From Comamonadaceae bacterium PBBC1 (GTDB taxonomy: Bacteria > Pseudomonadota > Gammaproteobacteria > Burkholderiales > Burkholderiaceae_C): 64,000 bases of DNA. The position numbers were made by a program, and so were the translations under genes. Below, piece after piece: positions 31,103 to 34,454 of the stretch. The stretch covers positions 62,001 through 126,000 of the forward strand of contig NKIP01000002.1 in NCBI GenBank assembly GCA_002256145.1. The letters are read 5' to 3'. Under the pieces are notes generated by a model. It worked only from the letters and a program-made list of their open reading frames with translations. It did not search any database and was not told the DNA's origin. Every line of letters begins with the position of its first letter. Position 1 is the first letter of the stretch.

Positions 31103-31231
31103 ATGAACACCCTGATTCGCCTGATGCTGATCGCCAGTGTGCTGAGTTTGACCGCGTGCAACACCGTGCGCGGCATCGGTCAGGACATTGAAAAACTGGG
31201 TTCCACCATTGAAGGCGCTGCCAAGAAATAA
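31103..31231 (+). CDS. Entericidin A/B-family small lipoprotein
   Basis: A 42-residue protein. The signal peptide [19 protein letters not shown] has a lipobox (LTAC) with the lipidated cysteine at residue 19, followed by [19 protein letters not shown], the entericidin core pattern (GxGxDIxxxG). AAGGAG lies about 8 nt before the ATG at 31103. It sits in the leuC-leuD gap, with its stop 4 nt before leuD, so it should be cotranscribed with leucine genes. In Escherichia coli, entericidins are small membrane lipoproteins linked to stationary-phase lysis; the role here is unknown. Confidence 0.88.
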
Positions 31232-31988: not shown

Positions 31989-33074
31989 ATGAAAATCGCA
32001 GTCCTCCCCGGTGATGGCATCGGCACCGAAATCGTCGCTGAAGCCGTCAAAGTCCTGAACACGCTCGACTTGAAGTTCGAGATGGAAACCGCCTTGGTCG
32101 GTGGTGCCGCTTACGACGCCTATGGCCACCCCCTGCCCGAAGCCACACTCAAGCTGGCCATGGACAGTGATGCCGTGCTGTTTGGCGCGGTCGGCGACTG
32201 GAAATACGACAAGCTCGACCGCCCTTTGCGCCCCGAGCAAGCGATTTTGGGCCTGCGCAAAAACATGGGCCTGTTCGCCAACTTCCGCCCCGCCATTTGC
32301 TACGAGCAACTGGTGGGCGCTTCCAGCCTCAAGCCTGAGCTGATTTCGGGCCTGGACATCCTGATCATCCGCGAGCTGACGGGTGACATCTACTTTGGCC
32401 AGCCACGCGGGCGCCGCATCGCGACCGACGGTCACTTCCCCGGTGCAGAAGAAGCCTTCGACACCATGCGCTACTCCAAGCCCGAGATCGAGCGCATCGC
32501 GCACGTCGCCTTCCAGGCCGCCCGCAAGCGCAAAGCTGCGGGCACCGAGGGCCGCGTGACCAGCGTGGACAAGGCCAACGTGCTCGAGACCTTCCAGTTC
32601 TGGAAAGACGTAGTCACCGAAGTGGGCAAAGAGTACCCCGACATCGCGCTGGACCACATGTATGTGGACAACGCCGCCATGCAGCTGGTCAAGGAACCCA
32701 AGCGCTTTGACGTGGTGGTCACCGGCAATATGTTTGGCGACATCCTGAGCGACGAAGCCTCGATGCTGACGGGCTCGATTGGCATGCTGCCCTCGGCCAG
32801 CCTGAACACCAAGAACCAAGGCCTGTACGAGCCCAGCCACGGCAGCGCCCCCGACATCGCGGGCAAAGGCGTGGCCAACCCGCTGGCCACCATCTTGTCC
32901 GCCGCCATGATGCTGCGCTTCAGCTTGAACCAACCCGAAGCCGCCCAACGCATCGAAGCGGCCGTGCAAAACGTCCTGGCCCAAGGTCTGCGCACGGGCG
33001 ACATCTGGAGTGAAGGCACCACCAAGGTGGGCACCGCGCAAATGGGTGATGCGGTGGTCAAAGCGCTGGGTTGA
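31989..33074 (+). CDS. leuB: 3-isopropylmalate dehydrogenase
   Basis: NAD-dependent oxidative decarboxylase of leucine synthesis, 361 residues. The motifs [15 protein letters not shown] (N terminus), [16 protein letters not shown], and the metal/NAD region [19 protein letters not shown] with [18 protein letters not shown] are all intact. It starts 105 nt after leuD. Downstream is a 250-nt gap that holds the candidate asd leader. Confidence 0.97.
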
Positions 33075-33117
33075 GCACCCAAAGGATGCTGTCAGGAAGC
33101 ACTCAGGCAGCATCCAT

Positions 33118-33123
33118 TACAAT
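33118..33123 (+). promoter_or_regulatory. Possible -10 element for the asd leader transcript
   Basis: TACAAT lies 7 nt before the ATG of the short leader frame. If it is a -10 element, the transcript would begin at or next to that ATG and be leaderless. No convincing -35 hexamer was found 16-18 nt upstream, so the call is weak. Confidence 0.3.
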
Positions 33124-33130
33124 TTCGGCC

Positions 33131-33232
33131 ATGTTTCACGCCCACCTGTTCTCCCTGAACCTGATCACTGCCGCTGCAGTGGCAGCTGGTGCGCGTGTAA
33201 CTTCCACAAAAACCACGACCATTAAGGGCTGA
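33131..33232 (+). CDS. Candidate regulatory leader peptide upstream of asd
   Basis: A 33-codon frame with an ATG at 33131 and a TGA at 33232. Eight of its last eleven codons encode Thr, Lys or Ile (VTSTKTTTIKG), the end products of the aspartate pathway that passes through asd. There is no clear Shine-Dalgarno, but TACAAT directly upstream could give a leaderless mRNA. Mutually exclusive hairpins follow before asd. The composition resembles attenuation leaders such as ThrL. I know no named family for it, and the function is inferred. Confidence 0.55.
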   Translation: MFHAHLFSLNLITAAAVAAGARVTSTKTTTIKG

Positions 33233-33257
33233 TCCGGCCTGGTTCGTCGTGCGCCCT

Positions 33258-33304
33258 CCCGGCCAGACGAGCCGGGCAAACAGTCTGGTCAAACACTGTT
33301 TTAA
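33258..33304 (+). promoter_or_regulatory. Competing hairpins in the asd leader (possible attenuator)
   Basis: Three overlapping pairings are visible: CCCGGC (33258-33263) with GCCGGG (33271-33276); GGCCAGAC (33261-33268) with GTCTGGTC (33283-33290); and AAACAGT (33278-33284) with ACTGTTT (33295-33301), which is followed by TTAAA. The first and second share bases, as do the second and third, so only some can form at once. This is the layout expected of an attenuator, though the last stem is weak. Confidence 0.45.
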
Positions 33305-33323
33305 ATACTGAAAGGGCGTTGAA

Positions 33324-34454
33324 ATGAGCAAGTTAGTAGGTTTGGTCGGCTGGCGCGGCATGGTCGGCTCGGTTCTGATGGACCGCATGATTCAGGAAAA
33401 AGACTTTGACCTGATCGAGCCATTGTTCTTCTCCACATCGAACGCGGGTGGCAAAGCCCCTTCGATGGCCAAGAACGAAACCACACTCCAAGACGCCTTC
33501 AACATCGAGCAGCTCAAGCGCTGCGAGATCATCATCACGGCCCAAGGCGGCGACTACACCTCTGAAGTCTTCCCCAAACTGCGTGCAGCAGGCTGGAACG
33601 GGCACTGGATCGACGCGGCCTCGACCCTGCGCATGGAAAAAGACGCGGTCATCATTCTGGACCCGGTCAACATGCCCGTGATCAAGAACGCCTTGGCGCA
33701 CGGTGGCAAGAACTGGGTGGGCGGCAACTGCACTGTGTCGTGCATGTTGATGGGCGTAGGTGCTTTGTACAAAGCGGGTTTGGTGGAATGGATGAGCACC
33801 CAGACTTACCAAGCGGCTTCAGGCGGTGGTGCGCAGCACATGCGCGAATTGCTGACCCAATACGGCACCCTGAACGCCGAAGTCAAATCCTTGCTGGACG
33901 ATCCCAAGAGCGCCATCCTCGAAATCGATCGGATGGTTGTAGCCAAACAACGCGCCCTGACCGCCTCTGAGACCGCCAATTTTGGCGTGCCACTGGGTGG
34001 CTCTTTGATTCCCTGGATCGACAAGGACCTGGGCAACGGCATGTCCAAAGAAGAGTGGAAAGGCATGGCCGAAACCAACAAGATTTTGGGCATGGGCGAG
34101 GGTTTTGACTCTGCCGCCATCCCGGTCGACGGTTTTTGCGTGCGCGTAGGTGCCATGCGCTGCCACAGCCAGGCCTTGACCTTCAAACTCAAAAAAGATG
34201 TGCCCGTGGCCGACCTCGAAGCCATGATCGCGGCCGACAACGAGTGGGTCAAAGTGATTCCTAACACTCGGGAAGCCACCATCCAGGGCTTGACACCAGT
34301 GGCCGTCACCGGCACCATGGCAATCCCGGTGGGAAGAGTACGAAAGTTGGCAATGGGTCCAGAATATGTAGGAGCATTTACCATCGGGGATCAACTTCTT
34401 TGGGGTGCAGCGGAACCGCTGCGCCGCATGCTGCGCATTCTGTTGGAAGCCTGA
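33324..34454 (+). CDS. asd: Aspartate-semialdehyde dehydrogenase
   Basis: Reduces aspartyl phosphate to the semialdehyde, the branch point for Lys, Met, Thr, Ile and diaminopimelate. The protein has 376 residues. N-terminal [16 protein letters not shown] binds NADP. The catalytic cysteine is about C136 in GGNCTVSCM, and the histidine is in [14 protein letters not shown]. Length and motifs match the Gram-negative type. It starts 92 nt after the candidate leader peptide and is followed 37 nt later by the fimV-like gene. Confidence 0.96.

Follow-up and report, generated by a model that had tools for sequence, protein, structure and literature searches.

What does a short open reading frame rich in threonine, isoleucine and lysine codons do directly before asd, the branch-point gene for lysine, methionine, threonine, isoleucine and cell-wall diaminopimelate? 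The question arises in the window, the whole 64,000-nt stretch of DNA analysed here, whose leuB-asd gap (33075-33323) holds such a frame. It runs from an ATG at 33131 to a TGA at 33230-33232 and encodes the peptide MFHAHLFSLNLITAAAVAAGARVTSTKTTTIKG. The sequence and the ORF list bear out the preliminary description of this DNA, which reported a 33-codon frame with Thr, Lys or Ile at eight of its last eleven codons. The TACAAT that it placed 7 nt 5' of the leader ATG is likewise present (33118-33123), and the distance from the leader stop to the asd ATG (33324), given there as 92 nt, is corrected to 91 nt. That description proposed a Thr/Lys/Ile attenuator leader for asd, a proposal which conservation and covariation support. 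In our reading, to which we assign a probability of about 0.72, the element is a ribosome-operated translational attenuator of asd set by the supply of Thr, Ile and Lys; stalling and the effect on Asd output are what we infer from sequence comparison and fold models. Its parts, all on the + strand and numbered by position within the window, are as follows.

31989 to 33074, + strand: leuB, from the ORF list; the encoded LeuB ends GDAVVKALG, without a Thr/Ile/Lys tail.
33118 to 33123, + strand: -10-like box TACAAT, at a spacing that suits a transcript beginning at the leader ATG.
33131 to 33232, + strand: leader ORF, 33 codons plus stop, ending TSTKTTTIKG; conserved in relatives.
33203 to 33229, + strand: putative control codons S-T-K-T-T-T-I-K-G, directly 5' of the stop, supported by the model of Shine-Dalgarno opening.
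33239 to 33248, + strand: 5' strand of helix A (CTGGTTCGTC), from folds and covariation; partly under a ribosome at the stop codon.
33251 to 33257, + strand: X, the candidate anti-Shine-Dalgarno GCGCCCT, from folds and from pairing in relatives.
33258 to 33263, + strand: 5' strand of hairpin B, CCCGGC, from folds and covariation.
33266 to 33275, + strand: 3' strand of helix A (GACGAGCCGG), which shares bases with hairpin B on its 3' side.
33271 to 33276, + strand: 3' strand of hairpin B, GCCGGG, from folds and covariation.
33278 to 33301, + strand: weak hairpin C, AAACAGT...ACTGTTT, seen in folds.
33311 to 33319, + strand: asd Shine-Dalgarno AAAGGG with X' AGGGCGT (33313-33319), from sequence and folds.
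33324 to 34454, + strand: asd, the gene proposed to be controlled, from the ORF list; relatives with 97% identity or more were found.

The transcript would begin at the leader ATG, so that the leader would be translated without a Shine-Dalgarno sequence. A shortage of Thr-, Ile- or Lys-tRNA would halt the ribosome in the control codons; helix A would then form behind the stop codon, the anti-Shine-Dalgarno would be held off and the asd start would stay open. With good supply, the ribosome would arrive at the stop codon and cover the 5' strand of helix A, allowing hairpin B and a GCGCCCU:AGGGCGU helix to form and hide the asd Shine-Dalgarno. Because Asd lies on the route to Thr, Ile and Lys, such a switch would amount to end-product feedback. 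In fused sister lineages, the control codons would be the last codons of leuB, and the ribosome finishing LeuB would thereby take the reading.

The preliminary description made its proposal depend on the short frame being kept in relatives, and two samples answer this. The near sample consisted of the 80 nearest asd loci in named records (including Limnohabitans, Acidovorax, Hydrogenophaga, Rhodoferax, Roseateles and Paucibacter), read upstream of asd; the family sample consisted of 160 genomes, with asd present in 156 and 148 of those 156 asd loci read. A frame was scored as a leader if at least five of its last 12 residues were T, I, K or M, two being T or I, and if it ended 65-130 nt 5' of asd. 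Such a frame was found in 120 of the 148 family loci, and the RNA behind it has covarying stems, A and B. The 148 loci divide into 62 in which the frame is fused to LeuB, 40 in which it is free, 18 in which leuB is out of view and 28 with none; four of the last group (L138, L139, L175 and L213) have the element at another distance, and one call inside the family, L228, is doubtful. Among the nearest named loci, 74 of 80 carry a Thr/Ile/Lys-rich leader or LeuB tail (40 free, 16 with leuB out of view, 18 as a LeuB tail), and in two of the six negatives (L035 and L044) the sequence ends before the region. By these comparisons, the leader before asd is real and conserved. Two records titled Akkermansia (L009) and Singulisphaera (L048) have an asd 95% and 92% identical to that of the window, with the leader present; they are probably mislabelled or mixed assemblies.

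Since model R1, built on 51 rows, includes the control codons, the noncoding core was tested by a separate pattern. Peptide and core were both found at 107 loci and both missing at 23, with the peptide alone at 13 and the core alone at five; the core-only loci include L138 and L139, where the peptide lies farther off, and L123, which has the core and no peptide. As a control, 146 segments inside leuB were scanned with the core pattern, which occurred in 2. Lineages that lack both peptide and core retain asd. With an E cutoff of 0.1, R1 itself found a match in 101 of 120 family genomes; tightening the cutoff to 1e-5 left 95, with a single such match in each. The matches that were compared by eye with asd positions lie directly 5' of asd except in G233, where the distance is about 590 nt, and G255, where match and asd are on different contigs, both at contig ends. 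In a class sample of 185 genomes, matches with E <1e-3 were confined to two family members, with none in the other 183. The window's genome has no second R1 match below E 0.06, and one genome has a second, weaker match (G298:C46:3392-3466, E 1.2e-4).

The start of the leader transcript was approached through boxes of the type TANAAT, TACANT or TATANT lying 6-9 nt 5' of an in-frame start, counted in a free-class set of 118 loci that includes four outside the family. A -10-like box at this leaderless spacing was found in 110 of the 118 (91 TACAAT; 109 ATG starts), and 71 of the 110 peptides with a box have exactly 33 codons. A box at this distance would place the transcription start at the leader ATG, and the leader transcript is thus probably leaderless, judging by box position. 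A strict two-hexamer scan found no promoter. Intrinsic terminators between leuB and the leader at 17 of 64 free-class loci fit a leader-asd unit transcribed separately. Far from the control codons, the leader part 33131-33202 (MFAARPF.LN in many relatives) is conserved, as is the 33-codon length. Immediately 5' of the box in the window, 33084-33115 hold an inverted repeat, GGATGCTG ... CAGCATCC, by eye absent from most relatives, which may be an operator or chance. In the window's genome as a whole, TACAAT-N6-9-ATG occurs at 28 places (L302-L329) vs 6 for a reversed control pattern, many of the boxes preceding long genes, and leaderless or very short leaders seem common there; by eye, none of the 28 places is a second amino-acid leader.

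The RNA behind the leader stop can adopt exclusive folds. Helix A (33239-33248:33266-33275) and hairpin B (33258-33263:33271-33276) cannot coexist, as their 3' strands overlap. When the window was folded from upstream starts, helix A formed; when it was folded from 33245, mimicking a ribosome at the stop codon, GCGCCCT (33251-33257) paired with AGGGCGT (33313-33319), the asd Shine-Dalgarno included. The three hairpins named in the preliminary description are readable in the sequence, and the key pairings, 33239-33248:33266-33275 and 33251-33257:33313-33319, were not among them. Across 50 distinct aligned rows, helix A is paired in 94.2% of cells and hairpin B in 98.0%, and slid controls never exceed 47% pairing for A or 55% for B. 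Two-sided changes affect three pairs and nine cells in helix A (shuffled means 0.9 and 2.4) and two pairs and eight cells in hairpin B (shuffled means 1.3 and 2.6), the two-pair count of B being reached by 171 of 500 shuffles. The covariation scores of A and B were reached by 0 of 500 shuffles, which leave relatedness in. RNAalifold alone gives hairpin B only, and the covariation of helix A was counted separately.

The switch was then modelled across relatives. From 198 elements, 190 of them distinct, seven that the anchors did not parse and L087 were set aside, leaving 182 (106 free, 76 fused). A ribosome at the stop was represented by masking the first 15 nt from the stop codon, and dinucleotide shuffles served as controls. 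Unmasked, helix A (at least 6 expected pairs) formed in 111 of 182 elements, compared with 1.8% of shuffles; with the stop masked, X paired with the region before asd (at least 4 expected pairs) in 173 of 182 (shuffles 35%). At least three X pairs were gained on masking in 122 of 182 (92 of 106 free, 30 of 76 fused; shuffles 15.6%). Because the anchors used for parsing sit within helix A and close to B, these figures are biased in favour of A and B; X was free of such selection. Permuting the partners weakened the X:X' duplexes: the matched value for all 182 lay below every one of 5000 permutations, and the fused class by itself also favoured matched pairs; within the free class, matched pairs were no better than permuted. 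Pairing of the last codon with the RNA after the stop was found in 172 of 182 elements (shuffled mean 78), yet permuted partners gave a mean of 169, and this pairing was therefore not used as evidence.

On masking, the energy needed to open the asd Shine-Dalgarno rose by >1 kcal/mol in 102 of 106 free elements and fell in 2 (shuffled controls 26% up, 27% down), and in the window it went from 2.9 to 8.8 kcal/mol. In the fused class it rose in 35 of 76 and fell in 17 (shuffled controls 23% up, 26% down). With 15 nt of asd added, the counts were 87 up and 4 down for free elements and 19 up and 19 down for fused ones. A ribosome walked along the free leaders gave mean opening energies of 3.6-4.2 kcal/mol at codons -12 to -6 (4.9-5.7 in the window), 2.3, 1.8 and 1.8 kcal/mol with the A site at codons -4, -3 and -2, which are Thr, Ile and Lys in the window, then 3.1 at the last codon and 7.3 kcal/mol at the stop. 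In the window itself, the Thr codons farther 5' (-10 to -6) gave 5.0-5.7 vs 7.2 for the stop codon, so that stalls at early codons would open the asd site less. The fused class changed only from 3.3 to 5.0. Opening energy was preferred because a cruder measure, the mean unpaired fraction of the ribosome-binding region, weighs weak local pairs alike; that measure changed little on masking (mean +0.038, shuffled -0.010) and, for the window, went in the wrong direction (-0.17, and likewise 0.29 to 0.41 in a second run).

As expected of an attenuator, the upstream frame is rich in end-product codons in the window, in the free ends and in the fused ends. The folds are exclusive and, in the model, decided by ribosome position, a switch that is clear in free leaders and weak in fused ones. 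What would make the attenuation translational is an OFF fold that buries the asd Shine-Dalgarno, which is predicted in the window and in the 102 free and 35 fused elements just counted. Without a ribosome, free-class RNA is in the open fold at equilibrium, so repression would depend on a ribosome sitting at the stop codon or on the RNA being caught in a trapped fold. The equilibrium folds of the fused class often favour OFF even without a ribosome at the stop; there, folding order or another read-out may decide.

The same sensor could act on transcription, as in Escherichia coli, where thrABC is governed by a terminator belonging to thrL, a leader that contains Thr and Ile codons. A hairpin would then halt RNA polymerase after full translation of the leader, and control codons followed by exclusive helices are the classic layout for this. 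Three fused loci (L153, L155 and L159) have a ACAAACCC:GGGTTTGT helix followed by a T run, which would escape a strict terminator scan restricted to loops of 3-9 nt. However, that scan detected a terminator between leader and asd at none of 64 free loci and at one of 80 fused loci, a consensus scan of the window gap gave no terminator-like hit on the + strand, and the OFF helix in the window reaches the asd Shine-Dalgarno. We therefore regard transcription attenuation as unlikely. The thrL-like layout suggested in the preliminary description thus stands as to control codons and exclusive helices; its terminator was not found by these scans, and the predicted OFF fold buries the asd Shine-Dalgarno instead. 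Likeness to thrL (Rfam Thr_leader, RF00506) extends to ribosome-read Thr/Ile leader codons and aspartate-pathway feedback. Unlike thrL, the present leader would control asd, contains Lys codons too, buries a Shine-Dalgarno in the predicted OFF fold and has a putative leaderless start. An Rfam search of the leuB-asd gap gave no family match, Thr_leader included, at E up to 5.

The proposed translational attenuator would take its second form at the 62 fused family loci, where the candidate sensor is LeuB's own C-terminus (...AITKTITKG before the stop). Fused LeuB proteins extend 10-21 residues (median 13) beyond an MGDAV-like motif at 61 loci, vs only 4-6 residues for free-class LeuB at 39 loci. 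Fused ends such as ITKTITKG, ITTTKTIKS, KTITTITKS and TTMTKTIKG contain 35.8% T, 22.6% K and 15.5% I over 53 distinct nine-residue ends; free-class LeuB ends contain 0.5% T, 5.3% K and 0% I over 21 distinct ends. In Roseateles asaccharophilus (L055), LeuB has 367 residues; its alignment with 4iwh, the best solved structure, reaches residue 358, and that with other structures goes as far as 360, which marks the tail ITTTKTIKS as extra.

These tails bear on two further readings, in which the peptide itself matters. In the first, KTTTIKG would be a nascent-chain arrest sequence, stalling the ribosome by its own residues and not through tRNA supply. This motif is nearly invariant in free leaders, as arrest would lead one to expect; the fused ends, in contrast, vary in order and keep their composition, as codon sensing would predict, and arrest is accordingly very improbable. 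In the second, the leader peptide or LeuB tail would have a protein function (stability or contact), and the RNA behind it would be unrelated. The conserved N-terminal half of the free peptide and its frequent length of exactly 33 codons (71 of 110) speak for such a role, but the Thr/Ile/Lys end is all that free peptides have in common with LeuB tails, the RNA core tends to be present or absent together with the peptide, and solved LeuB chains align only as far as the tail; we give this reading equally little credence. A random frame in an intergenic gap has next to no chance of being the explanation, although 4 of 30 loci outside the family also scored (L110 and L259 look accidental), because conservation, with family-wide recurrence and covariation, already refutes it.

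It is likely that, in a large part of the family, the C-terminal codons of leuB serve as an amino-acid sensor for asd, and that this enzyme tail and the free, putatively leaderless 33-codon leader were swapped more than once while the RNA switch was kept. From their sequences, we infer that the fused form works like the free form. LeuB trees of 191 and 149 rows were built with the tail left out. The best tree needs nine free/fused changes, and on well-supported branches the fused label must have changed at least twice and the free label at least three times; the LeuB alignment is short, and the trees give neither direction nor date of the swaps.

Thr/Ile/Lys-rich frames of different sequence occur in a second family, that of G119, 86-94 nt before the start of the asd match at 13 of 30 loci (L276, L087, L277, L279-L285, L291, L293 and L103; for example ITKTITTKTIIKR, then stop). 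Each has a loosely defined TA...T box 5' of its start codon, and at several of these loci CTTCCCCGC faces GCGGGGAAG.

Other systems share single features with the asd element. In translational attenuation of the ermC type and in secM-secA, whether the start of the next gene is exposed or hidden depends on where a ribosome stands in the frame before it, and in secM-secA the sensor is the end of an upstream gene. These systems respond to antibiotics or secretion instead of amino-acid supply, and SecM is no metabolic enzyme. The ermC leader is mentioned in the available portion of a survey (PMC2965389). The actinobacterial LEU element, as described in the accessible part of PMC1262725, links leader codons with the leuA Shine-Dalgarno, and thus resembles the asd leader in combining leader-peptide control codons with a stem that involves the Shine-Dalgarno of a biosynthetic gene. 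In the LEU element, a pseudoknot forms between the Shine-Dalgarno and the leucine codons themselves, whereas the asd leader has a separate anti-Shine-Dalgarno after the stop. In Sinorhizobium meliloti trpL, according to the sections of PMC7298713 at hand, the transcript of an amino-acid attenuator starts at the leader-ORF ATG, as proposed here; trpL differs in sensing tryptophan by transcription attenuation, in belonging to an alphaproteobacterium and in its unrelated sequence. The formation of a Corynebacterium ilvBNC leader peptide without a ribosome binding site is known to us from a title cited in PMC10272879. The asd motif RF01732 of Lactobacillales is likewise an RNA motif linked with asd, as far as the available text of PMC2864571 goes, but it comes from another phylum and has no match in the window gap; the same text cites attenuator-like sequences before Streptococcus mutans asd. 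The word asd is absent from the main text of the surveys PMC2965389 and PMC3766115, so far as that text was accessible. The open-access literature yielded neither an asd attenuator in betaproteobacteria nor an enzyme tail serving as leader, and subscription papers lay mostly outside this scope, which leaves absence unproven.

The element shows how three end products at once could feed back on asd, and its fused form how an enzyme gene could come to regulate its neighbour through its last codons. If so, C-terminal tails in operons may hide attenuators that are missed by searches for short upstream ORFs. The existence of two interchangeable versions of one switch makes the idea directly testable. 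Elsewhere in the leu region of the window, between leuC and another leu gene, lies a 42-codon frame (31103-31231) whose product presumably resembles an entericidin-type small lipoprotein.
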